Assembly: GCA_020523905.1 (NCBI GenBank) | Contig: JAJAPZ010000002.1 | Span: 1 to 64,000 of the forward strand | Direction of reading: 5' to 3' | DNA: 64,000 bases | DNA from: Candidatus Obscuribacterium magneticum | GTDB lineage: Bacteria > Elusimicrobiota > Elusimicrobia > F11 | In this document: in pieces, positions 24,283 to 60,262 of the stretch | Position numbering within the stretch: the stretch's first letter is position 1 | Layout of the letters: each line of letters starts with the position of its first letter | Translations under genes and position numbers: made by a program | Notes under the pieces: model-generated | What the model was told of the DNA's origin: nothing | Database searches by the model: none | What the model saw: the letters and a program-made list of their open reading frames with translations, nothing else

Positions 24283-26133
24283 TTATTCTGAGCGCGATTC
24301 GGTATTCTTGAACGAGCGAACGACAATAAGAAGTCCCAACAATAGCCAAAAAACGCCCCCTTTAAAAGGATTTTCTAGCGTTACATCCGTCATGGAATGG
24401 AAAACATGATAGGAGAAAGCGCAGAGCAAGCCGAGAATAATTTCTTTTTGTTCCCTCCATTGAGTTTTTTGGGCGACACGGAAGGAGAGGACCATTTCTC
24501 TGCCGACCATCCAAAAAAATAAGACGATACCAGCGAGCCCCGTTCTGTAAAGAATCGCAATTAACGAATTGTGAGAGTCATATCGGTCTATGTTGTGGTA
24601 TCCAATAATTCGTCCAGGGATGAATCGCACGCCGAAAGGAACGCCGATAAATAACTTGGTCAGTTGGTGGTTAGAACACTTGTCGAATGGGGCCATCAAT
24701 TTTATCGATTCGACTAATGCTGGTTTCACGGGTTCAAATGCCGGTTTGGGTTCAGCGGGTTTTTCTGAAGTTTCTGGAGGTTTGGCTGTGACCGGTTGAG
24801 TTGGCGGGGCCGATGGGGCGGCCGCTTCAACCTTGGGTGGTTGTGAAATAGGTGTTGGAGATGGTTTCACGGGTTCAACGGCTGGTTTGGACTCGGCAGA
24901 TTTCTCTGGGACCACCAGAGGTTTGGGTTCAGCGGGTTTTTCTGGGACCACTGATGGTTTGGCTGAAACCGTCTGGGTGGGAGGAGCCGATGAAGCGGCT
25001 GCATCCAAATTTTCTTTCAGATGAGGGCTAGCCATCGGGGTTTTCCCTGAGGCTTTCGACTCGAATTTTTCAAGCATTTGCGTGACAGATGAAGCATTAT
25101 GTTGGGCGGCGTAGTGAAAAGCATTTAATTTGTCACCTGTTGGTATTTTCGCGAGCCGTTCTTTTGATCTAAAAAGATACGGATTGATTGTTATGCGATC
25201 CAGGGTATCAAATAAGGGTTTTGTCGCGGGGATCACCGCTTGGATTGAATCCTCCCACATCGCGATACGGGTGATGACATTGGGGGATTGAATGCCCCAA
25301 AAAAATGAGAGAAATTTGGTCTTAATGAGTTGGTAATTTTGCCTATTTGCCGATCGTTGAATAACGATTGTTCCAGTCAATGAAATAATTGTTATTAAGC
25401 ATAAGAACCAAAAGGGACGAAGTGACATCTTTAATATTCTTAAAGAAAACGCCATGACAAAATACGCCAGGAAAACAGAGACCCAAACTGTTCTGAATCC
25501 CGAGGTAACGATTGTGTACAGGAAAAAGGAGGTCAATGAAAGTAATATCAATCTGTGCTTTTTCTGAGAAAACCAGACATAAAATCCCCCCAGAACCACG
25601 ACCGACGCATACATAGCCCATGCGATCGTTGATGGTGAAAAAAATTCAAAGCGAAAATGAAGCGCATATCGAACTAGGAGTCCCAAAAGAACGGTAAAAT
25701 AAATCCTTTTTACTTGATTTGGGGTTTTGACATAGGTGATAACGATTTGAGTTATGAGACCGTAGAATACCAGCATTGCATCTCTCAGGGCGAGGATCCA
25801 ATGATCGACAAGAAGTCCGCGAAAAATGTTTAAAAGACCAATAGCATAGAACCAAAGCCATGGGCTCTTCCAATCCAGCATCCATTTGCTGAAGGTTTTT
25901 TCTCTTGCCGTTGTTATAGCTCCCCGAAGCAATAGGATGAACAATACGGGTTCGGTAATAAAAATCGGCAGTCCCGTAAATTGAGATAGGTTGAGAACGG
26001 CAAAGGATCGGTCTCCCAAGGCGTATCCAAGGAGGAGAATCAATCCTCCCACGGATGGTGTGATGGCCGTTGTTATAATTTGAAATAAGAATAGGGAAAA
26101 AATAAGCATGTTCTTCAGTAAATCAATTACCAA
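24283..26133 (-). CDS. O-antigen ligase/polymerase-like protein with Pro/Lys/Glu-rich insert, second
   Basis: 616-residue membrane protein, longer than the usual 400-500 because of an insert. Residues 10-260 hold about nine membrane spans. Residues 270-330 begin the periplasmic loop (VITRIAMWEDSIQAV). Residues 335-357 (LNAFHYAAQHNASSVTQMLEK) look like a single ankyrin-type repeat. Residues 361-475 are low complexity with repeated SAPPTQ, AKP and KPAEPKP units. The Wzy_C-like part returns with FIPGRIIGYHNID and DSHNSLIAILYRTGLAGIVLFF at 519-540, then two more spans. The start is TTG at 26133 with a weak site; ATG at 26109 is an alternative. It follows a GT4 gene by 3 bases. Ligase or polymerase activity is inferred from the loop. 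Confidence 0.78.
   Translation of the reverse strand: MVIDLLKNMLIFSLFLFQIITTAITPSVGGLILLLGYALGDRSFAVLNLSQFTGLPIFITEPVLFILLLRGAITTAREKTFSKWMLDWKSPWLWFYAIGLLNIFRGLLVDHWILALRDAMLVFYGLITQIVITYVKTPNQVKRIYFTVLLGLLVRYALHFRFEFFSPSTIAWAMYASVVVLGGFYVWFSQKKHRLILLSLTSFFLYTIVTSGFRTVWVSVFLAYFVMAFSLRILKMSLRPFWFLCLITIISLTGTIVIQRSANRQNYQLIKTKFLSFFWGIQSPNVITRIAMWEDSIQAVIPATKPLFDTLDRITINPYLFRSKERLAKIPTGDKLNAFHYAAQHNASSVTQMLEKFESKASGKTPMASPHLKENLDAAASSAPPTQTVSAKPSVVPEKPAEPKPLVVPEKSAESKPAVEPVKPSPTPISQPPKVEAAAPSAPPTQPVTAKPPETSEKPAEPKPAFEPVKPALVESIKLMAPFDKCSNHQLTKLFIGVPFGVRFIPGRIIGYHNIDRYDSHNSLIAILYRTGLAGIVLFFWMVGREMVLSFRVAQKTQWREQKEIILGLLCAFSYHVFHSMTDVTLENPFKGGVFWLLLGLLIVVRSFKNTESRSE
24709..25053 (-). repeat. Proline-rich low-complexity coding repeat
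   Basis: Encodes residues 361-475 of the O-antigen ligase-like protein. SAPPTQTVSAKPSVVPEKPAEPKP recurs as SAPPTQPVTAKPPETSEKPAEPKP, and PAVEPVKPSP recurs as PAFEPVKPAL, showing an internal duplication at DNA level. The segment is charged and proline-rich and, by topology of neighbouring parts, should lie in the periplasm. It could be a flexible spacer that crosses peptidoglycan, as in TonB-type linkers; that is inference. Confidence 0.75.
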
Positions 26134-36830: not shown

Positions 36831-37652
36831 TTATTTCTTGTTTCCTTTTACGTATAAGTTCCAGCCCCACTTTCTGGCGAAAAAGCTTTCCGACGGAGTG
36901 GGAAGCAACCGCGCCATATAATAACCCAATGTGGGATGTATAAATAGCTCTTCGTAAGGAAGTTTGTTGATAAGAAATGACAGATTTTGAAAGCCGTCTT
37001 TAAGCAGCCTTTCGATTTCCCGTTTGCCGTAAACCATAGCCAGCGGACAGTCCGGCCCATCGTTCATATTTCGAATTTGTTGCATGTCCTTTCCTCGATA
37101 GATTTTTGGCCCGATGTATTTCCGGATTCGAAAGGTAATGTGGTTACGGAAGCTAGCCCTGTTATAGACCATGAATATAGCTTGGCCGTTTGATTTTAAG
37201 ACGCGGTTTATTTCGTTAATCATCGGGCGTGGATTGGCAATATGATGCAACACCCCCATGCAGCAAATCACGTCGAAAGCGTTATCGGTATAGGGGATTA
37301 TTTTCCCGTCCGTCAATTTAAATTCCGCTTTGAACTGAGATAATTGGAATCGACGTTGACTCAGCTGGAGAGCTTTTTCAGTGAGATCGATCCCAAATAC
37401 GCGTGCTCCATAACGTGCATATTGGGCAAGTACGTAGCCATTCCCACATCCGACATCGAGAACCATTTTCCCCTCGGAACGATCGTATTCGTGGATCTTG
37501 TTTGAAAAGGAGGAAGGCTCGCAATTTTCCGCTTCCCTTTTCATGTCGAACGTCTTAAAAAAATCGGGGGACCCCAATTCTGCATCAATAAACTTGGCGC
37601 CGACGGGATTATTCTCCCAAAAGTTTTTAACGATCGAATTTTCAGCTTTCAT
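36831..37652 (-). CDS. Class I SAM-dependent methyltransferase
   Basis: 273 residues: an N-terminal ~60-residue cap (FWENNPVGAKF), then motif I MVLDVGCGNGYVL near 63, motif II VFGIDLTEKAL, and motif IV FDVICCMGVLHHI near 126 followed by RPMINEINRVLKSNG. The C-terminal ~100 residues are a helical region typical of methyltransferases that act on sugar-linked or lipid acceptors. It sits 4 bases upstream of AsnB and overlaps the WbpI-like gene by 4 bases. It may O- or N-methylate the uronic-acid sugar. Acceptor unknown. Confidence 0.86.
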   Translation of the reverse strand: MKAENSIVKNFWENNPVGAKFIDAELGSPDFFKTFDMKREAENCEPSSFSNKIHEYDRSEGKMVLDVGCGNGYVLAQYARYGARVFGIDLTEKALQLSQRRFQLSQFKAEFKLTDGKIIPYTDNAFDVICCMGVLHHIANPRPMINEINRVLKSNGQAIFMVYNRASFRNHITFRIRKYIGPKIYRGKDMQQIRNMNDGPDCPLAMVYGKREIERLLKDGFQNLSFLINKLPYEELFIHPTLGYYMARLLPTPSESFFARKWGWNLYVKGNKK

Positions 37653-38713
37653 TTGGTAAAGGATCCGATAATTTGGGCGATTTTATGGGCCGCGTTTCCC
37701 TGGCCGAAATAATTGGGATGCTTACGAATCCGATTGTTTAATGTTCGGATGATCCCTAAAAGGGACCGGGGACGCGATCCAACCAGCGTGTTCCATCCAT
37801 AGGACAGGGTTTCCGTCCATTCGGTGTTGTCACGCAGTGTCAAACAAGGAACATGGCAAAAATAGGCTTCCTTTTGAACACCGCCGGAGTCCGTCAAGAT
37901 CAATGTTGCTCCTTTTTCGAGGGCCAGCATATCCAGATAACCCTTCGGTTTTTTGATTCGAATATTCTTCGGGATTTGGATTCTTAATTTTTTAATGGCT
38001 TTTAAAGTGCGCGGGTGAATTAAAAAATAAATGGGCATGGGGATTTGCCCAAAGGCTCGAAGAATATGCTTCAGGACGATTTTGGAGTCTGTATTGCCAG
38101 CTCTGTGAATCGTGGCTAAGGCATACGGTTTTGGCGGGATATATGTTTCTCTGCCCCGTGATTTAATTTTCCTTATGTAATCTAAAAAGGCGTCGCACAT
38201 AACATCGCCGACGTTATAAACGCCCTTGGCGATTCCCTCTTTTTTAAGGTTATTGGTGGCGGTTTTCGTCGGACAAAACAGCAATGTGGACACATGATCG
38301 GTGATAATCCGATTGACTTCTTCCGGCATCGACATGTCATGGCTACGAAGCCCTGCTTCAACATGAATCAGGGGGATCCGAAGCTTGGCTGCCGCCAGGG
38401 CTCCGGCCAGAGTAGAGTTCGTGTCGCCGTAAACAAGAACCCAGTCCGGTTTTTCACGAAGGAGCACCTTTTCAATTCGTGTCAGCAGAGCGCCGGTTTG
38501 CCAAGCGTGGCTACCCGAGCCGACCCCAAGGTTATAGTCTGGCTTGGGGATGGCCAGTTGATCAAAAAATATTTGCGACATGTAAAAATCATAGTGTTGC
38601 CCCGTGTTAACAAGAACTTCCCGAAACCGTGTCCGTAGGATTTTGGACAAAGAGGCGGCTTTGACAAATTGAGGTCGGGCGCCAACGATTGTGACGATTT
38701 TAAGCTTGCTCAT
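37649..38713 (-). CDS. wbpI: UDP-N-acetylglucosamine 2-epimerase, non-hydrolysing (WbpI-like)
   Basis: 354 residues of the WecB/WbpI fold. KIVTIVGARPQFVKAASLSK is near 5-24, TGQHYD near 38, VYGDTNSTLAGALAAAKL near 94, HVEAGLRSHDMSMPEE near 115, and LTDSGGVQKEAYFCHVPC near 271, covering both catalytic acid regions. GDTNSTLAGALAAAKL and MPEE-NR are closest to WbpI, which inverts C2 of UDP-GlcNAc(3NAc)A to the manno form, but WecB (UDP-GlcNAc to UDP-ManNAc) is the alternative. The wbpA, wbpB-D and wbpE homologues in this block support the first. It lies 47 bases after the displaced end of the SGNH gene. Confidence 0.87.
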   Translation of the reverse strand: MSKLKIVTIVGARPQFVKAASLSKILRTRFREVLVNTGQHYDFYMSQIFFDQLAIPKPDYNLGVGSGSHAWQTGALLTRIEKVLLREKPDWVLVYGDTNSTLAGALAAAKLRIPLIHVEAGLRSHDMSMPEEVNRIITDHVSTLLFCPTKTATNNLKKEGIAKGVYNVGDVMCDAFLDYIRKIKSRGRETYIPPKPYALATIHRAGNTDSKIVLKHILRAFGQIPMPIYFLIHPRTLKAIKKLRIQIPKNIRIKKPKGYLDMLALEKGATLILTDSGGVQKEAYFCHVPCLTLRDNTEWTETLSYGWNTLVGSRPRSLLGIIRTLNNRIRKHPNYFGQGNAAHKIAQIIGSFTK

Positions 38714-38760: not shown

Positions 38761-38948
38761 TCAGATTTGGTTGTGCAACCAGGTCGACAATAATTCTGCT
38801 ACAAATTGATGCCCCTTCCAGTTTAAGTGGCCATGCCCCAGGTTGAAGTGAAGAGGTCGGCGACTTTCAGATATTTCGTTTTTCATGGGTTCTAACAAGT
38901 CATGATATTCGATTGATCTATTGTTAAAGATGTTTCTTAAATCGTTAA
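38761..38948 (-). pseudogene. Detached 3' end of the SGNH hydrolase gene
   Basis: Joining base 39866 to 38945, which removes the IS and one copy of the TAA duplication, restores one open frame. This fragment then gives 62 more codons after residue 355: LNDLRNIFNNRSIEYHD... and FNLGHGHLNWKGHQFVAELL..., ending at TGA (38763-38761). The GHGHLNWKGH part (residues 393-402 of the restored protein) corresponds to the last conserved block of SGNH esterases, with the probable catalytic His. By itself it has no start and cannot be expressed as such. It shows that the upstream ORF is truncated, not naturally short. Confidence 0.88.
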
Positions 38949-38967
38949 GAGCCTATCCGAATAACCC
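38949..38967. repeat. IS left terminal inverted repeat (19 bp)
   Basis: GAGCCTATCCGAATAACCC, exact match to the complement of 39847-39865. The next bases (TGAG versus CTGATG) differ by a one-base offset, so the perfect part ends here. Confidence 0.93.
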
Positions 38968-39793
38968 TGAGCAGCGATAGGTTATGAAGGCACAAACAAA
39001 ATGAAGCAAGGCCAAATAATTCATCGGTTTCTTCTCCCAGCGGATCAGAATCCGCCTGAAGCGATTCATCCAGCTATGGGTACGCTCGACCACCCATCGC
39101 CTGGCTTTAAATCTCGCGCTGCGCTTGATGGCTTGAGCCTCCTCTCCGCGAGCACGGATATGCGCCGTATATCCAAACTCGTTGACCAGATCTCGCACGT
39201 CATCGTAGTCGTAGCCTTTATCCAAGCACAAACCTTGGGGCGTACGATTCGTCGGCTTTGGGCGCGTAATCGGAATGCTTTTCAGGGTTTCTTCCACCAT
39301 CCTCATGTCATGGCGGTTGGCCCCATCAACAGCCAGACCCACAGGAACACCGGCGGCTTCACACAACACGCTTCGTTTTACGCCGCCTTTGGCTCTGTCC
39401 GTCGGATTTGGCCCGGTTTTTTTCCCCGCCCAGCGGGGCTTTGGTCATGGCGCCATCCATCGACTGTCACGACCAGTTCAGGCCTTTCAGTTCATCGTAC
39501 GCCTGCAACCCCTGTTTCCATAATTTCCGAAACACGCCCTTGTTTGTCCACTCCTGAAAACGGGAATGAGCCGTTGAGCTGCTGCAAATTCCCGTATCGT
39601 TCAATGCGTTCCACTGGCTTCCCGTCCGTAAAACGAAAAAGATTCCGTTCATTGCCTCTCGATCACTCACGCGCGGCCGTCCGCCCCCAAACCGGTGCGT
39701 ATTCTTATGTTTCGGCAGCAGCCTCTCGATTTTCTCCCACATTTTGTCTGAAACCAAATACCGAGCCCCTGATGTTTTTTTCATCGGTGTCAT
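38953..39793 (-). pseudogene. IS5-family DDE transposase, interrupted
   Basis: Two overlapping readings. The first (39793-39467, 108 residues) is the N-terminal part (SDKMWEKIERLLP near residue 15, GGGRPRVSDREAMNGIFFVLRTGSQW near 37-61) ending in LNWS then TGA at 39469-39467. The frame continues after that stop as QSMDGAMTKAPLGGEK, whose Asp is the first DDE acid, where this family normally has WQS-DGA, so TGA stands in for Trp. A run of seven A on the coding strand (39423-39417) then shifts the frame by one. The C-terminal part reads TGPNPTDRAKGG, LCLDKGYD (second D) and RWVVERTHSWMNRFRR (E). Either two inactivating changes or an unusual recoding is needed; inactivation is the simpler reading. 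Confidence 0.85.
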
Positions 39794-39842
39794 TGAACCT
39801 CCTGGTGGTTGAATTCACTCGGATGTTCATATCATACACCCA

Positions 39843-40934
39843 TCAGGGGTTATTCGGATAGGCTCTAAGCCAAAGGGATGGATCAAAATTATTCCTGAAT
39901 TGATCCGTATAAATTTCTTCGGGAAAGGGGATCCGCACTACAATCAAATGCCCGCCATCTTTGTTGACTGCTTTATTTAAATCATCGATGACAGCCGCCA
40001 TTATTTTAATGCAACCATCGTAGAATCTTTTATAAGAAAGATAAAAAGGGATGTTACCGACGAGTGAGGCGTCCAAATATATGCCGGGATTTATCGGGAT
40101 GTTCTCATTACCAAATGGGAAGAGAATATCTTGGCTATGGTCAACCGTTGGTTCATTCGATGGCGCGGTCTTTTGGGTAAGATTTTGTTTTTTTACCATA
40201 TGAAATTGAGGAGGGTTCGCATTGGCCGCATGAGCATTCGTTGAAGGGGAAATCCTAACGGTACCGTAAAATTTATACAGGGTGGTCGATAGAAGCCGCA
40301 GATATTCATGATAATGTTTTTTGAGGATTTTCGGGATGACAAGCCGATGGGATGTGTCTTCCCTCAGTTCAAAACCTACCCCTGACGGCAGATAATTGAC
40401 GCCGTTGCCATTCCACACGGCCCTGTGCCCGCCGGATCCGCTAACATTGTCGAGATAATCATTGAACCCCATGAATGAAATCACGATGTGCGGTTGATAT
40501 TTTCTAACAATATTTTCATAAGCGATCTTTTGTGCTGTTGTTCCCCAGCCGGACAACCCAAACGTCAATACTCCAGCCTTTTTTCCTTGCGCAATTAATT
40601 TTTTTTCAAGGAGTGCAGGAAATGCTCGGTCCAAAGGAATCCCCAAACATTCGACGTAAGAATCACCAAGGATGGCGATGCGTGTGATCTCTTTTTGTTT
40701 TTCAATTTGATGGTCATAATCACGAAATCCCTCGCTGTTGAACCATCCTTTAGATCGCCCCTCTCCAGCGGTCAGCATGTAAAAACTATGGGGGACATAT
40801 CGCCATCCAATCGCCGGACAAGGCTCTCGTTGGTAGCAGTTCAGGGGAAGGGTAAAAATCAACAGTTGATGAAGGGCTTCGATCAGACCCGCACCCACCA
40901 GAATACCGATTGAGAGAAAAAGGGCTTTTCGCAT
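39843..40934 (-). pseudogene. SGNH-fold acetyltransferase/esterase partner of MBOAT, truncated by IS insertion
   Basis: The open frame codes 363 residues, of which the last eight come from the IS end (LRAYPNNP region). Residues 5-25 are an N-terminal membrane anchor. GDSYVE at 90-95 holds the nucleophile Ser92, GLSGWG near 126 is block II, and MGFND at 155-159 is block III. Block V, with the catalytic His, lies beyond the IS. Without the IS the protein would be 417 residues. It begins 1 base after the MBOAT gene, as AlgI-AlgJ/AlgX-type pairs do: the MBOAT passes acetyl across the membrane and the SGNH protein transfers it to the glycan. Loss of the C-terminus should abolish this function. The restored last block has His where the usual Asp of D-x-x-H stands. 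Confidence 0.87.
39847..39865. repeat. IS right terminal inverted repeat (19 bp)
   Basis: Complement of the left terminal repeat, 19 of 19 bases. It is followed by the TAA target-site duplication at 39866-39868, matching TAA at 38946-38948 before the left end. Confidence 0.93.
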
Positions 40935-40935
40935 A

Positions 40936-42366
40936 TCAAAACTGAAAATATATAAAGGGATTGAGCCGTTCCTGTGGTGTCAGTGTCAGGAGGGCCGCGA
41001 TCAACATGCCGGATTCAAAACAGATCCAATTATGCGGTTGACTTTTAATGCGGTTGATAACGTTTATTTTCCATTCGTGGAGCCCTGATAATTTGAGCAG
41101 ATGCCATAAGACGACGCCCCCAAAGATAAACCGCAGGTTGAGAGTAAAGTAGTCTGGGAGAAGGGAAAAACCATTGCCCTGGGTAAAAAGGGCTTTCGAG
41201 ACATCGATTGCGTGTAAAAATGAGGTGCACCGGAAAAGGACCCAACCAAAGCATACCGCCAAAAAGGTGAACGCTTGTCCAAATATATTGTCAAAGGTTT
41301 TCAGTTTTTCAGGCCAATGTTTGTTGGCTATGTGCCAGCCGACCAGTAAAAGCCCATGATAGAAACCCCATAAGACGAACGTCCATTTTGCTCCGTGCCA
41401 AAGACCCCCAAGAAGCATCGTGATCAGCAGATTGGTATACATTCGCCTTTCTCCGCAACGCGAGCCCCCAAGGGAAATGTATAAGTAATCGCGGAGCCAG
41501 CTTGATAACGACATGTGCCACCGATGCCAAAATTCGCTGACGTTTCTCGCCAAATAAGGCCAGTAAAAATTTTCAGCCAGGGTGAAGCCCAACATGCGAG
41601 CGCATCCAATCGCCATATCCGAATACCCAGAGAAATCGAAGTAAATCTGGAAGGCGTAGCAAAGCACCCCCACCCACGCACTCATCATGTCGGTATTGGG
41701 GTTGGCAAAAAAGGCATCTGCGTATACAGCCAAGTTATCGGCGATTACCATTTTTTTAAAGGCCCCAATGAGCACACGGCGACCTGCCGTCAAAAGGGTG
41801 CCAATGTCCATAGCCTTGGAGAGGGAGAGTTGGGGAAGGAAGTCGGCCGCACGTACAATAGGGCCGGAGACAAGGTGTGGAAAGAAAAAAATGAATCCCA
41901 AATAATCGAAGTAGCTCCGATGTGGTTTTATTTTCCCCCGGTAGACATCGATGGCGTAACTCATCCCCTCAAACGTGTAAAACGATATCCCCAAGGGAAG
42001 GATAAGGTTGGCCATTCGAAATCCGTGGTGGCCGAGGAGACCTTGTGGAAAGAGTCCATCATAGATGTCCGCGAAAAAATGCAAATATTTAAAAAAGCCC
42101 AATATGGAAAGATTCGTGCCGATCATGATTGTCAGTAATAGGCGGCGAAGAGCGGTTTTATTCGTCTTATTAATCAGATGCGCCAGGAAAAAATCAACGG
42201 ACGTTTGTAGGAATATGAGGGGAATGAAAGCGTAGTTCCAACTTCCATAAAACACCATACTGGCTGTTAAAAGGAACCAAAGCTTGGGCTTGAGGGGCTG
42301 GATGGAATGAAAAACAACCAACGTTAAAGTGAAAAATAAGAAATATTCCTTTGTTGTAAACAGCAT
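40936..42366 (-). CDS. MBOAT family O-acyltransferase (AlgI-like)
   Basis: 476-residue membrane protein with about ten spans. It transfers acetyl groups, from a cytoplasmic donor, for O-acetylation of exported glycan. Landmarks are SFYTFEGMSYAIDVYRG near 133, FFPHLVSGPIVRAADFLPQ near 165, NVSEFWHRWHMSLSSWLRDYLYISLGG near 286 and GGLWHGAKWTFVLWGFYHG near 325, including the catalytic His of the family (LWHG). The WHxWH and GLWHG signatures are those of AlgI, PatA and DltB-type proteins. It abuts the SGNH partner gene, now broken by the IS. It stands 56 bases downstream of the aminotransferase gene. The MBOAT itself appears intact. Confidence 0.93.
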   Translation of the reverse strand: MLFTTKEYFLFFTLTLVVFHSIQPLKPKLWFLLTASMVFYGSWNYAFIPLIFLQTSVDFFLAHLINKTNKTALRRLLLTIMIGTNLSILGFFKYLHFFADIYDGLFPQGLLGHHGFRMANLILPLGISFYTFEGMSYAIDVYRGKIKPHRSYFDYLGFIFFFPHLVSGPIVRAADFLPQLSLSKAMDIGTLLTAGRRVLIGAFKKMVIADNLAVYADAFFANPNTDMMSAWVGVLCYAFQIYFDFSGYSDMAIGCARMLGFTLAENFYWPYLARNVSEFWHRWHMSLSSWLRDYLYISLGGSRCGERRMYTNLLITMLLGGLWHGAKWTFVLWGFYHGLLLVGWHIANKHWPEKLKTFDNIFGQAFTFLAVCFGWVLFRCTSFLHAIDVSKALFTQGNGFSLLPDYFTLNLRFIFGGVVLWHLLKLSGLHEWKINVINRIKSQPHNWICFESGMLIAALLTLTPQERLNPFIYFQF

Positions 42367-43603: not shown

Positions 43604-45241
43604 TTAACTTACCTTTATCGGCTCATCGCAAACAGCTTGGGGCGTGCATTTCCATTCATTGGCGTCGTCTTTGCAGATTTGATAGCTGGCTTCACAGCGG
43701 GAGCAAACGACCTTTTTGGGTGATGAATTCTGTGCTTCCTGGATTGGCAGTTTTTCTCCGCACTGGCACATCCAGCCATGGTGTTGGGCGGGGGATCCAT
43801 AAACCAATGAATAAGGTTTCACGTTGTGCGTTACGACGGCTCCAGCGCCAACGAAAGCATAATCTCCGATGGTCACGCCACAAACAATTGTTGCATTGGC
43901 GCCGACCGTCGCTCCTTTACCGACCTTTGTGACGCGATATTCATTTTTTCTCTCCACTTCGGACCGCGGATTAAATACGTTGGTAAAAACGGCGGAGGGA
44001 CCCAGAAAAGCGAAATCGGCGATTTCAACGCGCTCATAGACGGATACGTTATTTTGGATTTTTACACCGTTTCCTATCTTTACGTTCTTAGCAATGAAAA
44101 CATTCTGTCCAATGCGGCAGTTTTTGCCAATAACGGCTCCCGGCATGATGTTGCAGAAGTGCCAAATGTTTGTCCCTTTCCCGATTTGGGCCGTGCGGTC
44201 GGCAAAAGAACTCGGGTGGATATAAAAGGGGAGCGTCTTTTCAGAACTTCCCTTAGGTTCCGTAACGATGATCTCCCCTTTTTCAAGCGATTGTTGGCTA
44301 TGGTTAAGTAACTTCAAGGTTAACAGCCCTTCTTGACCGTTGGTGATAGGGGGAGTTCGTTTTTCGATCGACTCCAGAAACGCCTTCGCTTCACGAAGAA
44401 GCGGCTCTTCCCAATCCACACGAATGTATTCGGGTTCGTTTTTTTTCGGGTTTGGAAGGCCGTCAATCCAGACCACCTGGTGGCGGTAAATGGCCAGTTT
44501 TTTGTCGGGCTCAACCGTGTCATCGAAAACGAGCATTCCGTTGGATCCGACCACGATCAGTTTTTGCTCTTTTGTCGGATGTAACCAGGACACGAAAATA
44601 TGGGCTTTGGTCCCGGAATTAAAGTTGTACGTGCAAAGTGTGATGTCAGCAATTTTCTGGTGGAGGTAATTGCCCCCGGTGCAATACACTTCCAGGGGGT
44701 ATTCTTTGAGGATCGAGAGAATGAGGGAGATGTCGTGCGGTGCGAAGCTCCAGAGAATGTTTTCTTCATTCCGGAACTTTCCGAGATTGAGTCGATTCGA
44801 GTAGATATAGTTGACCTTGCCAATGTCCCCTCGTCGAATCATCTCTTTCATTTTAACGATGCAGGGGTGGTAGTGAAGGACATGGCCGACAAACAGAATC
44901 CGCCCGTTTTTCTCTGCGATGTCAACCAGTTCTTCTCCGTTTGAGACACTCATCGCGAGAGGCTTTTCAATAAAAACGTCTTTCCCAGACAATAAGGCTT
45001 GTTTCCCGATTTCGTAATGGGACGTGGCGGGTGTCGCTATCACAACGGCCTTTATGTCAGAATTTTTAAGGATTGCATCCAGCGAGGGGACGATGTCGAC
45101 TCCTTTATATGTTGCCTGGAGATCACGACGCCGCTGCGAGTCCGCATCGCATACAGCCGCCAGTTGGCCGAGGTCGTTCATCACGCGGACGAGGTTTTTC
45201 CCCCAATATCCGGCTCCGATGACCGCTATTTTTTTCATCAT
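43604..45241 (-). CDS. Gfo/Idh/MocA oxidoreductase fused to left-handed beta-helix N-acetyltransferase (WbpB-WbpD-like)
   Basis: 545 residues from ATG 45241, chosen because AAGAAAGG lies 8 bases upstream and MMKKIAVIGAGYWGKN is the proper Rossmann start; the frame runs to 45280 inside the previous gene. Residues 1-320 are the oxidoreductase (GAGYWGKN at 9-16, EKPLA at 92-96, PHDIS at 168-172). Residues 341-490 are a hexapeptide beta-helix with IQNNVSVYERV, GPSAVFTNVFNPRSEVERK and VGANATIVCGVTIGDYAFVGAGAVV, the WbpD/WlbB signature. Residues 491-545 end in a zinc ribbon (Cys492, 494, 513, 516). The fusion would oxidise UDP-GlcNAcA at C3 and later acetylate the 3-amino product. It is followed 5 bases later by the WbpE-like gene. 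Confidence 0.88.
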   Translation of the reverse strand: MMKKIAVIGAGYWGKNLVRVMNDLGQLAAVCDADSQRRRDLQATYKGVDIVPSLDAILKNSDIKAVVIATPATSHYEIGKQALLSGKDVFIEKPLAMSVSNGEELVDIAEKNGRILFVGHVLHYHPCIVKMKEMIRRGDIGKVNYIYSNRLNLGKFRNEENILWSFAPHDISLILSILKEYPLEVYCTGGNYLHQKIADITLCTYNFNSGTKAHIFVSWLHPTKEQKLIVVGSNGMLVFDDTVEPDKKLAIYRHQVVWIDGLPNPKKNEPEYIRVDWEEPLLREAKAFLESIEKRTPPITNGQEGLLTLKLLNHSQQSLEKGEIIVTEPKGSSEKTLPFYIHPSSFADRTAQIGKGTNIWHFCNIMPGAVIGKNCRIGQNVFIAKNVKIGNGVKIQNNVSVYERVEIADFAFLGPSAVFTNVFNPRSEVERKNEYRVTKVGKGATVGANATIVCGVTIGDYAFVGAGAVVTHNVKPYSLVYGSPAQHHGWMCQCGEKLPIQEAQNSSPKKVVCSRCEASYQICKDDANEWKCTPQAVCDEPIKVS

Positions 45242-45249
45242 TATTGATA

Positions 45250-45257
45250 CCTTTCTT
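45250..45257 (-). promoter_or_regulatory. Ribosome-binding site of the WbpB-WbpD fusion
   Basis: Coding-strand AAGAAAGG with 8 bases to the ATG at 45241. It supports that start over the longer one at 45280, which would overlap the upstream gene by 20 bases. Confidence 0.6.
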
Positions 45258-45260
45258 GAA

Positions 45261-45992
45261 TCAAACGCCAACCGTTTCATTCATTAGCGTTGAAAACCGC
45301 TGAATTCCATTTTCATTGCCCAAATCGAACTTGGCAAATGTTGTGGTTGGATAAACAATACCACCCGAGTCAATTAAATAATTCATGGCAGGGCCGACAA
45401 AATATTCGCCATTCAATGGTTTCCCAGAATCAAGCTGCCACTCCAGCGCTCGAAGCAGCCACTCACCGCTTCCGAATCCATAGACGCCGCTACTGGCATA
45501 ATGGGAAACCGGGTCTTTTTCAACGATCCTTTTGACCCGTCCGCCCTCAATTATGGCATAACTTGACGACGGTGATAACCCAAAGTATAGGGGGAGATAC
45601 CCCCCCTTCTCGTCGAGCTCTCGTTTGATATCGAAGATGATGTATTGATCACAATTGATAACCGTGCACGGATCTTTTGTCATTAAGGCATCTTTGGCTG
45701 TGTAGACACTGGCGGCCGGCCCAGGAGGGGTGTCGGGGGCCAAAAATACCCGATATTTATTCATTATCACTTCTTTTGAAAGAATGCCTTCGATCGCCTT
45801 TTTCACGTAAAACTCATTTTCGAAGGCTTTTGTCGTTATGAAAATCAGGGAGTCTTCCTTTTGTATTTCATGGCGGATTCCGTGCAGGGCCCATTGGAGA
45901 AGGGGTTTTCCCGACACGATTATTAAGGGTTTGAAGCGACCCCGGTTTAAGGTTCTTTTTCCGAGGCCTGCGATCGGTAGAATCCAAATCAT
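45261..45992 (-). CDS. Sugar nucleotidyltransferase-like protein (start corrected to 45992)
   Basis: The frame extends to 46025, but ATG 45992 forms ATGA with the upstream stop, follows AAGGA by about 10 bases, and gives MIWILPIAGLGKRTLNRGRFKP, the true family start (G-x-G-x-R with the K-P at 21-22). The resulting 243 residues form a single Rossmann-type nucleotidyltransferase domain without a beta-helix tail. INCDQYIIFDIK near 118 carries the metal-binding Asp, and IVEKDPVSHYASSGVYGF the sugar-binding E-K. The substrate is unknown. It immediately follows a glucuronate-isomerase-like gene, so it may activate the product of that group. Similar short enzymes occur near unusual-sugar loci (Cj1416-type). 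Confidence 0.83.
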   Translation of the reverse strand: MIWILPIAGLGKRTLNRGRFKPLIIVSGKPLLQWALHGIRHEIQKEDSLIFITTKAFENEFYVKKAIEGILSKEVIMNKYRVFLAPDTPPGPAASVYTAKDALMTKDPCTVINCDQYIIFDIKRELDEKGGYLPLYFGLSPSSSYAIIEGGRVKRIVEKDPVSHYASSGVYGFGSGEWLLRALEWQLDSGKPLNGEYFVGPAMNYLIDSGGIVYPTTTFAKFDLGNENGIQRFSTLMNETVGV

Positions 45993-47239
45993 CGTTTCTG
46001 TTCCTTCGAATTTATGTTTAGCCATTTTTCAGCGTTGCCGCGAAGAATGTTATAAACGTCTTGTCGAATCCCTTCGCGCGTCAACGGCCAATTCACCTGG
46101 CATAGTTTCGCGTAATGCTCGATCAAAACGTCTTTGAGAATCTTTTTAAAATGAATCCACTTGTAAATCAAGTGCTCAAGAACGCGGGCATCCGAGTGCT
46201 GCCCGATAAAACTGGACCCCAGCAGTTCCAAACGCATGGTGAGCGTTTCCCTGATGATGGATGGAATGTTTAAAAACCACCAAAATCCGAATATTCGCAT
46301 GTTCTGAAAGTTTTTCGCCAGAACGAGGAGGGGATATTGAGAACTGCGAGAAAGCGTCGTAATGAGGAATTTATTTTCGGCATACTGGGAGAGTAAATCT
46401 TCAAGGACACGAAGGTCATCGCCCACCAGCCCATCTCCTCCTAAACCGTAGAGGGGATTTACTTGACGTTTCACTCCAAGCATCAGAGCCAAGGGGATTT
46501 GCCGCTCGGCAAGGAAAGGGAGCAACGACGTGCAGAAAAATTTATCACGTTTCAACGCGTGCAATTGATCCCACGTGGCGGACAAGGCGAAGTAAAGAGG
46601 CTGAACGGAGGAGGTTGTTTTGGATAAATATTCCATTAAACCTTTATCCGTTCTTTTCTTCTTTTTCAATGCAGAATTCACGGGTTGAGAAGTTAAAAAG
46701 ACGTCATCCAAGCGGATGGAGGGTCGAAAATGTTTTTTATCCCACGTCGTTTTATTAAAGAGGGACCATTCATCGTTATCAAAGGGATTGTTTGTCATCG
46801 AGACCCATTCTACGCCGGCCAAACGAAAAACGTCGTTCATGTAGGATGATGTCGAATTCATCCTGTCCCGGAATTGACGTTGAAGAAATTCGTAATTTTG
46901 GCCGTTAATGGGAAGCCCCAATTGGGTGAGTATCGTTACCACTCCTTGACACGCTTCCGATAGGGGTGAGCGCTCCTCAAACAAGTGCGTCCATATGCGT
47001 TCGGCTTGTTGTTGACGCGTAAACGACCGATATAATTTTGGAGAGAAGCCACTGGAGGAAAGAAATTCGGAAGATAAATAATGGTACGTTAGAATAGAGT
47101 CAAGGCCTGCTTGAAAATAGGATGTGTGTTCCGGCGGAAAAAGGTGCGTATGGATATCGATGAGGGGAGTTTGATCAACCGCTTCTTGAATGCTCGATTC
47201 CAACTGCGCCCGATCAATTTTCTTCAAAGATGTTGACAT
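45989..47239 (-). CDS. Glucuronate isomerase-like amidohydrolase
   Basis: 416 residues of the metal-dependent amidohydrolase superfamily. LIDIHTHLFPPEH at 26-38 gives the D-x-H-x-H metal site and, with the ~120-residue all-helical region after it, resembles UxaC (uronate isomerase, aldo-keto interconversion of GlcA/GalA). FGFWWFLNIPSIIRETLTMRLELLG near 320-344 and QHSDARVLEH near 348 match the UxaC family end (GRHWWFND and SDSR), although with substitutions. Full UxaC is about 470 residues, so this is shorter. It precedes the nucleotidyltransferase gene (ATGA) and follows a GT gene by 3 bases. I infer isomerisation of a uronic acid or phospho-sugar for the glycan. Catabolic use is less likely in this setting. 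Confidence 0.75.
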   Translation of the reverse strand: MSTSLKKIDRAQLESSIQEAVDQTPLIDIHTHLFPPEHTSYFQAGLDSILTYHYLSSEFLSSSGFSPKLYRSFTRQQQAERIWTHLFEERSPLSEACQGVVTILTQLGLPINGQNYEFLQRQFRDRMNSTSSYMNDVFRLAGVEWVSMTNNPFDNDEWSLFNKTTWDKKHFRPSIRLDDVFLTSQPVNSALKKKKRTDKGLMEYLSKTTSSVQPLYFALSATWDQLHALKRDKFFCTSLLPFLAERQIPLALMLGVKRQVNPLYGLGGDGLVGDDLRVLEDLLSQYAENKFLITTLSRSSQYPLLVLAKNFQNMRIFGFWWFLNIPSIIRETLTMRLELLGSSFIGQHSDARVLEHLIYKWIHFKKILKDVLIEHYAKLCQVNWPLTREGIRQDVYNILRGNAEKWLNINSKEQKR

Positions 47240-47242
47240 TGA

Positions 47243-48133
47243 TTAAACGACCTGGGTTAACTTCACCATCACTTTTCGAGAGTGGACGCTGAGGTAGCTA
47301 TCAATTTGCGCTTCGACCTCCAAGTTGAACGATATGGTGTTGCTTAAGGTGATGTTCGGATGATGGGCGTCTTTAAAGGAGTCGTCAATGTCGAAGGCGT
47401 CCGTTTGAATGGAATGAACGCCGGTTCCGTCAAAACCGATGTTTTTAATAAGCGTTCGCGACGGAAAAATGGCGAAGCTGTTCGTCAGATAATGGACAAG
47501 AGACCAACTGATACTCCAGATGTCGGCATTGCCGTTGAGGAAGTAATCTTCGCTGCAGAATTTCTTGAGATCCTGTGACAATCGATCGAAAAGACCCCGG
47601 GCGTTAATCTCGAGCGCGAGTTTTCGAGCGTCGTTTGTATAGTCCGCCCAACGATCTTTCCATGTGGCCCATCCCCATGGATTGAAGCGATAAAGAGGGA
47701 TGCCGTGAATATCCTTGGATTTGTGATCAACGAACGGATATTGATAGCCACAAACGCTTCGGACCTTATGATGGGTGCGGTATTTCGTTAGGCTTTCATT
47801 CATAAACTTAAAAAAGCCGGGCAAGGGGCAACAGTCATCTTCCAAAAGGATGACGCTATCATGGTGTTTTAATTGTTCCGAAACGCACTCTGTAATCGAC
47901 GTGGCCAAACCCGTATTTTTTCCCCTTCGAATGAGTTTGATCTTTGCCCAATCAATGCTTTCATAAATTTTTACCAATTCTTTTTGAAGGGCATGGTCCT
48001 TCTTATTCAAAGGCGCATCCATGTAGATAACGAAATTCGTGACGCCTTCGGTGCGCATGGAATCGAGGACTTGGGCTGTGTGATGGGGTCTGTTGTACGT
48101 TATAAGAACAATGGCAGTATTTAGTTTGTGCAT
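47243..48133 (-). CDS. GT-A type glycosyltransferase (start uncertain)
   Basis: 296 residues from ATG 48133; the frame also has ATG 48148. 48133 is preferred because it gives MHKLNTAIVLITYNRPHHTAQVLDSM, the family start. Neither has a strong ribosome-binding site, and both overlap the PFK-like stop. AIVLITYNRP is GT-A/GT2-like, and the metal motif is VILLEDDCCPLPGFF near 95 (E-D-D). YRFNPWGWATWKDRWADY near 161 is a signature of bacterial GT-A proteins resembling GnT-I-type transferases in O-antigen loci. It lies between PFK-like and glucuronate-isomerase-like genes, so it may transfer the sugar they make. Donor unknown. Confidence 0.82.
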   Translation of the reverse strand: MHKLNTAIVLITYNRPHHTAQVLDSMRTEGVTNFVIYMDAPLNKKDHALQKELVKIYESIDWAKIKLIRRGKNTGLATSITECVSEQLKHHDSVILLEDDCCPLPGFFKFMNESLTKYRTHHKVRSVCGYQYPFVDHKSKDIHGIPLYRFNPWGWATWKDRWADYTNDARKLALEINARGLFDRLSQDLKKFCSEDYFLNGNADIWSISWSLVHYLTNSFAIFPSRTLIKNIGFDGTGVHSIQTDAFDIDDSFKDAHHPNITLSNTISFNLEVEAQIDSYLSVHSRKVMVKLTQVV

Positions 48134-49374
48134 AGACTGGTTTCCCATTTGTCTAGTATTTTTCGTTTAACCGGCTCGACCGGTTCGATAAAACGCGGGA
48201 TACATTCATCAATTGGGATATGCGTCGAAGGGCCTTTAAGGAAAGGCCTGAGATAGTCGACATAATCGTTCGACACATCGAAGGCCCCGCGCCAGATCCA
48301 GCGTTTCGGCATCACTCGGGAAAAATTGTTAATGGACGCAAGGGGAAGAGCGTCCATTTGTGGTTGTTCGCTGTGATAACGGGAGACAGACGCCAGAAAA
48401 TGAGTTTTACCTTCGTCAAAGGATCGAATAATAAATTCACCGAGTTGATAAGAAAAGTTCATGTCCATCTCCGACGTAAACATAATTTCAAGGCGTTGAT
48501 CAACCGTCGGGATATACGCCCGCGTTTGGATCCCATTTTTCATTAAGTGATTGACAAGAAGCTGAGCGGCGGTCGTTCCGCTTGACCCATACATGATTTG
48601 GCCGGAGGGGTCATAAACCTGGCCGAGATCACCGACTTGATATCCCTCGGATAATATCACAATCACCCGTTTCTGTTGAGAAAGTGTTTTTTCAATAGCA
48701 GAAATAACGGCGTCCAAATTCTGTTGATCTTCAGGAAGGAGAAGTAGTAAGGGGAATCGGCGTTCCGTGTCCCCCACTCGCGGCGCCCCGGATAAAAATC
48801 CGGTTTCTCGGCCAAATGTCTGTGCCACGAGGACCCGATCGTGGGAACAGGCGCCCAAACTTTCTTGGTTTAAAAGATGCAGTTTGTGGACCCAGTAGCG
48901 GACACAACTTGGGAAACCGGGTGTAAAATAAACTTTCTGAAATTCGGCATCCCCCAAATCGTTGTCAACTGTTTTCGGAGCGGCGGCAATTTTTAAATCG
49001 ACAGGCCCCATTTTATCGGCAATGCTTTTTGTCTGCTTGATGGTTCCGTTTCCGCCAATGTTGATGAAATAACCGATCTTGTAGGCATCGATGACCTCGA
49101 AGAGACGTTGAATTTCCCGATCCGACAAGGGGGTGATTCGAGTCGTCCCTAAAAAACCAGAGCCGGGGGTTGTTTTTAGAAGGGCCAGCGCTTTATCGTC
49201 CAAGTTCGTTAAATCCACGAGGTCTTCATTTAACGCCCCTAAGATTCCCGGAAATCCCGCATAGATTTTCCCGAAGCGAGGCGACTTCTTAACTTGTGAA
49301 AGGATACCCGCCAGCGTCGCATTGATGACCGTCGTTGTTCCCCCCGACATGGTGATGAGAAGATTATTATTCAT
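48121..49374 (-). CDS. Phosphofructokinase-family protein, divergent
   Basis: 417 residues, with landmarks of the PFK superfamily: MSGGTTTVINATLAG at 9-23 (PFK SGGD-PG-NA), INIGGNGTI at 105-112 (usually GGDGS or GGDDS), APKTVDNDLGDAEF at 132-145 (PKT-D-D of PPi-PFK and Mg site), AQTFGRETGFLSGAPRV at 184-200 (GR-AG) and ILSEGY at 240-245. GGNGT changes the catalytic Mg Asp to Asn, so either the metal site is altered or the enzyme has another phosphate acceptor. PKT with Lys suggests PPi rather than ATP use, but Asn makes this unclear. It lies 10 bases after an AsnB gene and overlaps the GT start. Central glycolytic PFK is unlikely here. I infer a sugar-phosphate kinase for glycan synthesis. 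Confidence 0.8.
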   Translation of the reverse strand: MNNNLLITMSGGTTTVINATLAGILSQVKKSPRFGKIYAGFPGILGALNEDLVDLTNLDDKALALLKTTPGSGFLGTTRITPLSDREIQRLFEVIDAYKIGYFINIGGNGTIKQTKSIADKMGPVDLKIAAAPKTVDNDLGDAEFQKVYFTPGFPSCVRYWVHKLHLLNQESLGACSHDRVLVAQTFGRETGFLSGAPRVGDTERRFPLLLLLPEDQQNLDAVISAIEKTLSQQKRVIVILSEGYQVGDLGQVYDPSGQIMYGSSGTTAAQLLVNHLMKNGIQTRAYIPTVDQRLEIMFTSEMDMNFSYQLGEFIIRSFDEGKTHFLASVSRYHSEQPQMDALPLASINNFSRVMPKRWIWRGAFDVSNDYVDYLRPFLKGPSTHIPIDECIPRFIEPVEPVKRKILDKWETSLCTN

Positions 49375-51267: not shown

Positions 51268-52251
51268 TTAACCTTTTGCCCGACGAGACACCCTGGGGCG
51301 ATCGTGTTCGGTATCGATATAGTTGATGGCTCGATCGTGAGAACTCATCACGACGGAATGGGTCACGATTTTAGTGGGATAGTGCTCGACACCTTTCAAG
51401 AAGGGTCCCGACGTAACACCCGTGGCGCAGAAAATGACGGGCCCCCTTGCCAACTCTTCGTGTTTATATATTTTTTTGAGATCTTTGATACCGGCGTTTC
51501 GAGCTCGGCGGATTTCGTCTGGATTCCGATACCAGAGTTTTCCCTGAATTTCTCCACCGAGACAATGGAGCGCCGTTGCCGCCAGCACGCCTTCGGGAGC
51601 CCCCCCAATGCCGAAGAGACAGTCGTTTCGGTTGTTCAGATGCCAGCTTGTGGAAATGGCCCCGATGACATCCCCGTCATCGACGACCTTTATCAGGACT
51701 CCCATCCGATGCAACACTTCAATAAACTCTTGATTATAAGGCCGGTTAAGGATAGTAAAACGCAAGTCTTTAATACGGCATTTTTTTGCCTTTGATATAA
51801 AAGCGACGTTTCGGGACAAGGGTTGGTTCAGATCAATGACTCCTTTGGCTTCGGGGCCAACGGCTATTTTCAACATGAACATATCGGGCGCGTGGAGGAG
51901 TTGCCCCTTTTGCGCGAGAGCCATAATCGATAAGGAACCCGGCTTTCCGTTCGCGCAAATCCGCGTTCCTTCAAGCGGATCGACGGCGATATCGACGCTT
52001 GGCCCGCATCCGTTTCCCGTCTTTTCATGAAACCGCAGTGCAGGCGCGGCGTCTCTTAAGCCTTCGCCGATAGCGATACGCCCTTGGAATGGGCACTTTT
52101 TAAGGTGTTTCCTCATCGCGGCGACGGCACTCCGATCGGCCCCCATGCGATTGCCGGACCCGGCGTATCGGGATGCGGCGATAGCGCCCGCTTCAGTGAC
52201 GGAAACGACGTCGATTGAAAGAGAAGGGGCAAAGCAGTGAATTGCCTTCAC
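51268..52251 (-). CDS. glpX: Class II fructose-1,6-bisphosphatase-like phosphatase (GlpX family)
   Basis: 327 residues of the GlpX family, Li-sensitive Mg-dependent sugar bisphosphatases. IAIGEGLRDAAPAL at 59-72 and VDIAVDPLEGTRICANGKPGSLSIMALA at 86-113 form the metal site (D-P-L-E-G-T). GIGGAPEGVLAATAL at 213-227 and VIFCATGVTSGPFLKGV near 270 complete the family pattern, so the enzyme looks active. The start is GTG at 52251, overlapping the previous stop by 4 bases. It lies beside AsnB and a PFK-like gene. The combination of a kinase-like and a bisphosphatase-like gene suggests handling of a sugar bisphosphate dedicated to glycan synthesis. It could also be a misplaced housekeeping FBPase, for which the location is odd. 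Confidence 0.9.
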   Translation of the reverse strand: MKAIHCFAPSLSIDVVSVTEAGAIAASRYAGSGNRMGADRSAVAAMRKHLKKCPFQGRIAIGEGLRDAAPALRFHEKTGNGCGPSVDIAVDPLEGTRICANGKPGSLSIMALAQKGQLLHAPDMFMLKIAVGPEAKGVIDLNQPLSRNVAFISKAKKCRIKDLRFTILNRPYNQEFIEVLHRMGVLIKVVDDGDVIGAISTSWHLNNRNDCLFGIGGAPEGVLAATALHCLGGEIQGKLWYRNPDEIRRARNAGIKDLKKIYKHEELARGPVIFCATGVTSGPFLKGVEHYPTKIVTHSVVMSSHDRAINYIDTEHDRPRVSRRAKG

Positions 52252-57811: not shown

Positions 57812-58788
57812 GACGATTTCCCATGAGTGGCCTTATTTGTAATCGATGAAATTAGTTCTTGTGTTTTCAAGGCTTCCTCGCCATCACAGGTAAAGGGGGT
57901 TTTATCTCCGCTTAATTTACCGGCCACTTCTGAAAAAAGAGGAAGGAAGCGCTCCTTCTTAGGAAGCCGAGGCGAGGGACAAACCGTCAACTCGCGATAT
58001 CCGCTGTATCTTTTACTCCTCTCAAAATAACCCCATTGAATTTCTCCGCAATTGTTCACAACGCGGCAACGTCCTTTTCGACCAACGATATCGATCTCAA
58101 ATATCAAATCCTCTCTTTTTCCTGTCGGTATTAAGTGAAAAAGCGTCCGTCCCCTGTTTTTCATTAGGGCGCCAAAACTTTTATCTTCTTTTGATGAGAC
58201 ATAGGCACGGATAACTTCCAATTCACCAAGCAGATATCGTGCCAGATCTACCATGTGGGATCCAACGGCTTCAAATGGGCCGGAGTAATACCCCAATGCC
58301 TGGGTGATTCGCCCCAGACGGTTTTTATTTAAGAGTTGTTTCTTCAGGTATTCAATGGTTCCTTCGAATCGCTTGTAGTAGTTAACAGCTAATAGGGTAT
58401 TTTGTTTACGGCAACGATAAACGGCTTGTCGACAGGAACGGAGATCTGTCCCCAAGGGTTTTTCACAGATGATGGCGCGAACTTTACCGGCGCACTCCAT
58501 GGCATGTTGTGCGTGAAGTTGGGGAGGTGTGCATAGGCTCACGATGTCCAAGGATTCTCTTTCCAGCATCGTTGGGAGGTTTTTATACGCCCTCACATTT
58601 TTCCTTTTGAGTGCTTTTTTAATTTTCTCGGGGTCCAATTCGCAGACGGCAACCAAATCGAATCGGTTATTTAATCTTTCGTAGGCTGTAAAATGTGTCC
58701 ACACCCCTTCCCGACGTTTGTCATCGTCAAAAAGGAGTCCCACTTGGCCGAGACCTACAATGGCCGCCCGAAAACGTTTGTTAGTCAT
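57808..58788 (-). CDS. Gfo/Idh/MocA family oxidoreductase
   Basis: 326 residues, NAD(P)-dependent. The N-terminal Rossmann fold opens AAIVGLGQVGLLFDDD (8-23), ICEKPLGTDLRSC near 109 gives the E-K-P-L signature with catalytic Lys, and GSHMVDLARYLLGE near 177 is the substrate H-D region. The family oxidises or reduces sugar hydroxyls, often NDP-sugars. It sits between two DegT aminotransferase genes (8-base overlap and 4-base ATGA), an arrangement that suggests oxidation then transamination of one sugar. Comparable to PtmF-like oxidoreductases of legionaminic acid loci, but that match is by context only. Confidence 0.87.
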   Translation of the reverse strand: MTNKRFRAAIVGLGQVGLLFDDDKRREGVWTHFTAYERLNNRFDLVAVCELDPEKIKKALKRKNVRAYKNLPTMLERESLDIVSLCTPPQLHAQHAMECAGKVRAIICEKPLGTDLRSCRQAVYRCRKQNTLLAVNYYKRFEGTIEYLKKQLLNKNRLGRITQALGYYSGPFEAVGSHMVDLARYLLGELEVIRAYVSSKEDKSFGALMKNRGRTLFHLIPTGKREDLIFEIDIVGRKGRCRVVNNCGEIQWGYFERSKRYSGYRELTVCPSPRLPKKERFLPLFSEVAGKLSGDKTPFTCDGEEALKTQELISSITNKATHGKSS

Positions 58789-60262
58789 AGGTTAAGACCC
58801 GGGTCAGTTCTTTAATTTGCTGAATCTTTTGGAAGGCTTGCGAAATGCGTTCGATTTCCTCAGCCCTTAAGGAAACAGCCGAGGGAAGACTTAATCCGGT
58901 TTGAGAAATTCGGTTGGTGATGGGAAACTCGTCATGTTTAACGTAAGGGGTATAGGGGGGCATCGTATGAAGAGGGTGAAAAGCGGGCCGGGTCTCGATA
59001 CCATTTTGCAGCAGCTTATGCATGAGCTCGTCGCGATGAAACCCTGAGTTCGTATTAACCAGAATGGTATAAAGCCAGTAGCTACTTTTTGCCCACGTCA
59101 CGGTGAGGGGCAACGTGATTCCCGGGAAATTTTTTAGGATGGTTTCATATTGGCTAGCCAGAGACCGTTTTTTAACGATAAAAGAATTGGCTCTCTCCAT
59201 TTGCGCTACCCCGATGGCGGCTTGAAGGTTCGTCAGCCGGTAGTTGTAACCGGCTTCCAAATGCCAGTATCGCCGTTGGGGCGTCATGCCATGGTCGCGC
59301 AGAAGTCTTGCCCGGTTGTAATGTTCTTCGTTGTTGAAGAGGATCATCCCCCCCTCTCCGGTCGTAATGAGTTTGTTGCCGAAAAAGCTGAAACACCCCG
59401 CCTCTGCGAATGTCCCCACGAGCCGGCTTTTATATGTTGCGCCAAAGGCCTCCGCACAGTCTTCAATAATGCGGAGGTCATGTTTTTTGGCGATTTCCAT
59501 GAGAGGGTCCATATCGCATGGTTGGCCGTACAAATGGACAGGCATGATGGCCTTTGTCTTAGGGGTTATCGCCTTCTCGACGAGCTCCGGATTGAGCGTC
59601 CACGTTTCTTCGGTAACGTCGACAAAAACGGGTGTGGCGCCGGCGTGAATCACGGCGTTGGCGGAGGCGGCAAAAGTGAGATCGGGGACGATGACTTCGT
59701 CCCCCCGTCCGATCCCCAGCGTGACCAAAGCCAGATGAAGGGCCACCGTTCCGTTTGAGACGGCCAGAGCTTTTTGGCCCGCATGGAATTCGCTGAACAC
59801 TTTTTCGAATTGATTGACAAAGCGGCCCTGCGAAGAGATCCAGTTCGTTTGCAGACATTCCATAACGTAAGACACCTCATTGCCGTCCAGAAGGGGTTCC
59901 ATGATGGGAATTTGATGGAGCCGGTGGTGGGAGGCGAAATCGATGGGGCGTCCGTCCTCATCAAGCAGTGGGATGATGGCAATTCGTTCTGAAAGGTGTT
60001 GGAGAACGATCTCGTGAGGCGTGGTGACGGCTAACGCCACATAATTTCGCTGCATGATTTCATTGAGAGATGTTTCCAGCGTGATCCCTTTGATGAGAGC
60101 GCGACGAACGTCCCCGTCTGTCACCGTCCCCGTCAGTTTCCCATTGCCGTCAACAATAAAAGAGATGCCCAGTGCCGTCCGGTTAATCAACTCCAGGACA
60201 GAGCGGATGGATGATTTCTCATTTATTGTTAGATCATGAATGGTTATAGTTGGGGAACTCAT
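58781..60262 (-). CDS. CBS-domain pair fused to DegT-type aminotransferase (start corrected to 60262)
   Basis: The frame extends to 60379, but the ATG at 60262 forms ATGA with the upstream stop and begins MSSPTITIHDLTINEKSSIRSVLELIN. The result is 493 residues. Residues ~5-120 are a tandem CBS pair (GISFIVDGNGKLTGTVTDGDVRRALIKG and IIPLLDEDGRPIDFAS). The rest is a full DegT aminotransferase: SNGTVALHLALVTLGIG near 175, EDCAEAFGATYKSR near 264, and CFSFFGNKLITTGEGGM near 289 with the PLP Lys. CBS pairs often bind adenine nucleotides and gate activity, so this may be an allosterically regulated aminotransferase. In Campylobacter PtmE a CBS pair is instead fused to a nucleotidyltransferase, so the present pairing is unusual. 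It overlaps the Gfo/Idh gene by 8 bases. Confidence 0.88.
   Translation of the reverse strand: MSSPTITIHDLTINEKSSIRSVLELINRTALGISFIVDGNGKLTGTVTDGDVRRALIKGITLETSLNEIMQRNYVALAVTTPHEIVLQHLSERIAIIPLLDEDGRPIDFASHHRLHQIPIMEPLLDGNEVSYVMECLQTNWISSQGRFVNQFEKVFSEFHAGQKALAVSNGTVALHLALVTLGIGRGDEVIVPDLTFAASANAVIHAGATPVFVDVTEETWTLNPELVEKAITPKTKAIMPVHLYGQPCDMDPLMEIAKKHDLRIIEDCAEAFGATYKSRLVGTFAEAGCFSFFGNKLITTGEGGMILFNNEEHYNRARLLRDHGMTPQRRYWHLEAGYNYRLTNLQAAIGVAQMERANSFIVKKRSLASQYETILKNFPGITLPLTVTWAKSSYWLYTILVNTNSGFHRDELMHKLLQNGIETRPAFHPLHTMPPYTPYVKHDEFPITNRISQTGLSLPSAVSLRAEEIERISQAFQKIQQIKELTRVLTYD

Follow-up and report, generated by a model that had tools for sequence, protein, structure and literature searches.

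In the PatA/PatB and AlgI/AlgJ/AlgX systems, an MBOAT protein is followed by a membrane-anchored SGNH protein, the MBOAT carries a C-terminal FxYxxF motif, and the SGNH fold contains Ser and His blocks. PatA acetylates the Tyr of its own C-terminal FxYxxF hexapeptide and PatB takes the acetylated hexapeptide as donor, a shuttle mechanism that has been proposed for MBOAT-SGNH pairs in general (PMC12148441). Genes for the O-acetylation of surface glycans can be lost to mobile DNA: in natural isolates of Salmonella Typhimurium, oafA is affected by an IS4 insertion, nonsense mutations and deletions, and the loss of O-acetylation was measured (PMC9426603). Insertion sequences of the IS427 group make a short target duplication of 2-4 bp (PMC3281130). 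The stretch analyzed here (the window) covers the first 64 kb of C60, a contig of 180 kb. It contains the same MBOAT-then-SGNH arrangement as the pairs above, with an MBOAT ending in the FxYxxF motif and an SGNH gene encoding Ser and His blocks; unlike those systems, the SGNH has no Asp in the usual position ahead of the His and its gene is cut by an insertion sequence (IS). We consider it highly probable that an IS427-type element of the IS5 family inserted into, and thereby inactivated, the SGNH half of an MBOAT-SGNH pair for glycan acylation. The features of the locus are as follows.

37649..38713, minus strand: wecB-like UDP-GlcNAc 2-epimerase gene, the next gene downstream of the broken SGNH gene on the same strand
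38761..38945, minus strand: 3′ part of the SGNH gene, codons 357-417 and the TGA stop, including block V with His396 (HLNWKGH)
38946..38948: left copy of the TAA target-site duplication; the one copy kept is part of codons 356-357
38949..39865, minus strand: IS5-family element of the IS427-group type, 917 bp, single copy in the assembly
38949..38967: 19-bp terminal inverted repeat GAGCCTATCCGAATAACCC
39847..39865: 19-bp terminal inverted repeat GGGTTATTCGGATAGGCTC
39866..39868: right copy of the TAA target-site duplication
39869..40934, minus strand: 5′ part of the SGNH gene, covering codons 1-355 and some of 356, with the N-terminal anchor and the GDS block containing Ser92
39843..40934, minus strand: present-day truncated open reading frame of 363 aa, in which 356 native residues run on into RAYPNNP, encoded by the end of the IS
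40936..42366, minus strand: intact MBOAT gene, 476 aa, ending in FIYFQF, with its stop one base before the SGNH ATG

A sequence-only reading had placed the IS at 38949-39865 with a TAA duplication, which proved correct to the base: its terminal repeats, GAGCCTATCCGAATAACCC and GGGTTATTCGGATAGGCTC, match without exception over 19 bp (or 20 bp with the adjoining A/T counted), and TAA is present on both sides. The transposase matches the NCBIfam model NF033580 (transpos_IS5_3) at 1.7e-36 for orfB and 1.4e-27 for orfA, and the Pfam families DUF4096 (5.4e-25) and DDE_Tnp_1. Transposase homology, short terminal repeats and a duplication within 2-4 bp thus place the element in the IS5 family, and it agrees with the published description of the IS427 group (PMC3281130) in its length, its two-frame structure and its short duplication. 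It also shares with members such as ISAzo38 the combination of DUF4096 and DDE domains, an A-run frameshift site between the two frames and the conserved sequence around the first Asp. Unlike them, it has a TGA codon in orfA at a conserved Trp, and its best DNA matches, IS5-family elements including ISAzo38 on plasmids, are only ~64-72% identical. A relative of the IS is also present in a genome of the same class as the host, and the 72% identical relative occurs in only one other genome among those searched. No second copy was found in the assembled genome. The insertion in the SGNH gene is not a chance pattern, as the transposase is recognized and both halves of the gene match the SGNH profile described below.

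The draft assembly of the host genome spans 2.89 Mb on 137 contigs; its completeness is 71% and its estimated contamination 13%, which leaves some room for the junction being an assembly error or a minority allele instead of the population state. This is very improbable, however, because a misassembly would not be expected to produce perfect repeats at both ends together with a target duplication, and the IS, being single copy in the assembly, offers no repeat to confuse the assembler.

When the flanks are joined with one TAA, the SGNH gene becomes a frame of 1254 bases, 417 codons and TGA, open throughout. This reproduces the continuous 417-residue frame proposed earlier from the sequence, and the joined protein aligns to its relatives across the junction. 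Against a profile built from 12 SGNH genes, all of them from other MBOAT loci, the joined protein scored 113.1 bits, compared with 98.3 for the N fragment and 12.9 for the C fragment; the junction at residue 356/357 is spanned by the alignment's second domain. The part cut off comprises residues 357-417 (61 residues) and contains the HLNWKGH block (H396...G401 H402), in agreement with the earlier proposal that an HLN-x-x-GH block with the probable catalytic His was lost. Ser92 and His396 are invariant among 14 aligned proteins; both are present in the joined pre-insertion frame, while today's gene retains Ser92 and has lost His396. A functional 363-residue product was rejected, since neither the invariant His nor the final part of the fold is present in it. 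An Asp stands two or three residues before the His in several relatives, but Gly or His does in this protein, which makes the catalytic set less than fully canonical.

The best Pfam match of the SGNH protein is the generic Lipase_GDSL_2; the Pfam ALGX family model gave zero matches in the host genome, as did the control search, and a profile of the SGNH relatives matched AlgJ and AlgX chains weakly. No relative was found when the genome contigs were scanned with the joined SGNH protein. A structure model of an intact relative, L081 (mean pLDDT 78), adopts the SGNH fold; among its Foldseek hits, PatB structures take third and fourth place, whereas esterases and thioesterases make up most of the VIA-align list; the fold therefore does not decide between transferase and esterase. 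The same SGNH family was also found away from any MBOAT in related genomes, and some of its members may thus be esterases. A rival reading is that the broken protein removed acyl groups as an esterase, in which case its loss would raise the acylation of the glycan. The generic Pfam match, the many esterases among the structural matches and the relatives without an MBOAT would suit such a role, but the one-base gap to an MBOAT with a shuttle motif, the same arrangement in other phyla, and the PatB structures and AlgJ/AlgX sequences among the matches make it unlikely.

We then compared the MBOAT gene with its relatives. The protein matches PF03062 at 2.8e-31 and solved DltB structures at 3e-29, and its C-terminus, PFIYFQF, fits the FxYxxF acyl-shuttle motif of PatA and DltX. 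In a scan of genome contigs with the window MBOAT, the motif stood at the C-terminal end of 66 of 70 relatives, and 11 of the 70 had a strong homolog of the broken SGNH directly downstream (E 2.3e-34 or better), mostly 4-21 bases after the MBOAT stop. The hosts of these 11 intact pairs are mostly Obscuribacterales and Melainabacteria, with one alphaproteobacterium; other MBOAT relatives, for example in Rhodopirellula, have a more distant SGNH upstream. The shared motif and the SGNH neighbors indicate that the MBOAT-SGNH pair is a widespread unit. On these sequence grounds, the window holds such a pair with its second half broken. The earlier suggestion that the intact MBOAT now stands without its cognate partner is strengthened by the pairing in other phyla and by the FIYFQF tail.

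By analogy with the described pairs, the intact system would work in three steps. First, the Tyr in the C-terminal FIYFQF of the MBOAT would be charged by the MBOAT itself with an acyl group, probably acetyl derived from acetyl-CoA. Ser92 of the SGNH, a membrane-anchored protein of the periplasm, would then accept the group, with His396 acting as base, and the SGNH would finally hand it on to what is presumably a glycan. Today the SGNH consists of its first 356 residues and seven more encoded by the IS. As His396 and the last part of the fold are missing, acyl groups handled by this pair should get no further than the MBOAT.

Whether the glycan itself is altered depends on what else the genome encodes, and it contains at least two other MBOAT-SGNH pairs, one of them on the same contig.

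C60:80020-81531: second MBOAT gene, followed by an SGNH-like gene at 79012-80013, ~38 kb away on the same contig

This second MBOAT (L031 15012-17531 for the pair, equal to C60:79012-81531) is 38% identical to the window MBOAT and also ends in FIYFQF, and the SGNH-like gene beside it differs from the broken one, with a weak DUF1574/DltD match. A third MBOAT, cut by a contig end, is followed by a gene for a 361-aa SGNH-like protein (L033 6360-8256, contig C117). Two more GDSL proteins are encoded in the assembly, at C60:83438-84778 and on C104. With two other pairs present, a total loss of O-acylation does not follow. The sequence-only reading had expected glycan O-acetylation to be lost or changed; the broken SGNH and the partnerless MBOAT support this as far as acyl transfer by this pair is concerned, which should be lost, but the additional pairs limit it. 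That reading had also named two findings that together would remove the effect, namely reads with no IS-free allele in any relative and a second intact SGNH gene in the genome, and the two other pairs supply half of this. Glycan acylation may accordingly be little changed if another pair takes over or if the MBOAT uses another SGNH, a possibility that we take seriously but lean against. The two further MBOATs with SGNH-like neighbors and the two additional GDSL proteins provide candidates for such a substitution. However, the other SGNH partners are distant in sequence, with weak DUF1574, DltD or GDSL matches, and each already adjoins an MBOAT of its own, which suggests dedicated partners.

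Effects of the IS on its neighbors were also considered. The idea that a terminator within the IS exerts a polar effect on wecB was rejected, because the single terminator-like site of the IS lies on the opposite strand; such sites are fewer in the region than in its shuffles. An outward promoter was likewise rejected, as no promoter-like site lies inside the IS. Two minus-strand promoter-like sites lie downstream of the IS near the wecB start, and the total of promoter-like sites is no more than expected by chance.

The region around the IS is a long minus-strand glycan locus with sugar-nucleotide epimerases, glycosyltransferases, aminotransferases, two asparagine-synthase-like genes and the wecB-like gene; several of these names were read off the sequences, and not all come from searches. 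A 558-aa protein (43604-45280) is a Gfo/Idh/MocA oxidoreductase fused with a hexapeptide acyltransferase. Within the glycan locus, a 416-aa protein starting with IDIHTHLF (45989-47239) has no Pfam match at 1e-5 but resembles amidohydrolase or glucuronate isomerase proteins. Also within the locus, an asparagine-synthase-like gene is flanked by genes for a phosphofructokinase-like protein and a glpX-type fructose-1,6-bisphosphatase (48121-49374 and 51268-52251), which perhaps supply sugar phosphate for an unusual sugar. Elsewhere in the window, a 616-aa protein with multiple membrane spans (24283-26133) has a Pro/Lys/Glu-rich repeat insert (tandem repeat at 24883-24962) and no Pfam match at 1e-5; it is probably a polymerase or ligase of the glycan. 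At 58781-60379, an N-terminal CBS domain is fused to a DegT-type aminotransferase.

The state of the transposase bears on whether the IS can move. Its parts are as follows.

39467..39793, minus strand: transposase orfA (DUF4096), 108 aa, with TGA where relatives have Trp
39416..39423, minus strand: A7C run, which includes the heptamer A AAA AAC and is probably where the transposase frame shifts by -1
38953..39369, minus strand: transposase orfB (DDE_Tnp_1), the C-terminal half, in the other frame

Before the A-run, ISAzo38 and an Azotobacter copy read ...D-W-S-W-L-S-L/M-D-G-A-M-T-K and the L035 relative reads ...W-R-W-Q-S-M-D-G-A-M-T-K, whereas the window IS reads N-W-S-stop-Q-S-M-D-G-A-M-T-K. 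All three related transposases have Trp at the TGA position, and the orfA product ends just before the first catalytic Asp. An in-frame TGA therefore stands between the orfA start and the A7C run, so that frameshifting from orfA does not yield a fused, complete DDE transposase, and the IS is a defective descendant of the IS427 group. Recoding of TGA as Trp was rejected, because MBOAT, wecB and several other genes in the window use TGA as an ordinary stop. With the nonsense codon at the conserved Trp no full transposase is made, and the IS is not autonomous and cannot move by itself. Judging from its coding sequence, it could move only with help from another copy, none of which was found in the assembly. 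Self-driven on/off switching is thus unlikely, a point that the sequence-only reading had missed.

Neither half of the SGNH gene contains a stop or a frameshift. Under a neutral model with assumed rates (stops from ~4% of substitutions, indels as 5-10% of events), this lack of decay is compatible at 95% with at most about 2-3% divergence since the insertion. Calling the insertion recent, as had been done earlier, is therefore reasonable for undecayed halves, but only as an upper bound of roughly 2-3% neutral divergence on assumed rates. No empty-site sequence was found in the viral contigs. That the knock-out of the pair is a selected, population-variable surface change, for example for phage escape, with the MBOAT kept because IS-free cells are common, is in our view decidedly improbable.

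The inactivation of the SGNH half is an ordinary IS knock-out. Such inactivation of surface-glycan O-acetyltransferase genes is already established, with oafA as the direct precedent (PMC9426603): there, too, the gene was inactivated by an IS. Unlike the pair in the window, OafA is a single integral membrane trans-acylase, and its phenotype was measured in Salmonella. Existing knowledge of insertion sequences and O-acylation is unchanged by this case. New are the instance in an uncultured lineage with a different type of enzyme and the identification of the SGNH as half of an MBOAT-SGNH pair, which ties the gene to a partner with a recognizable acyl-shuttle tail. The locus would provide a clean example, outside the well-studied pathogens, of a surface-sugar modification switched off by mobile DNA.
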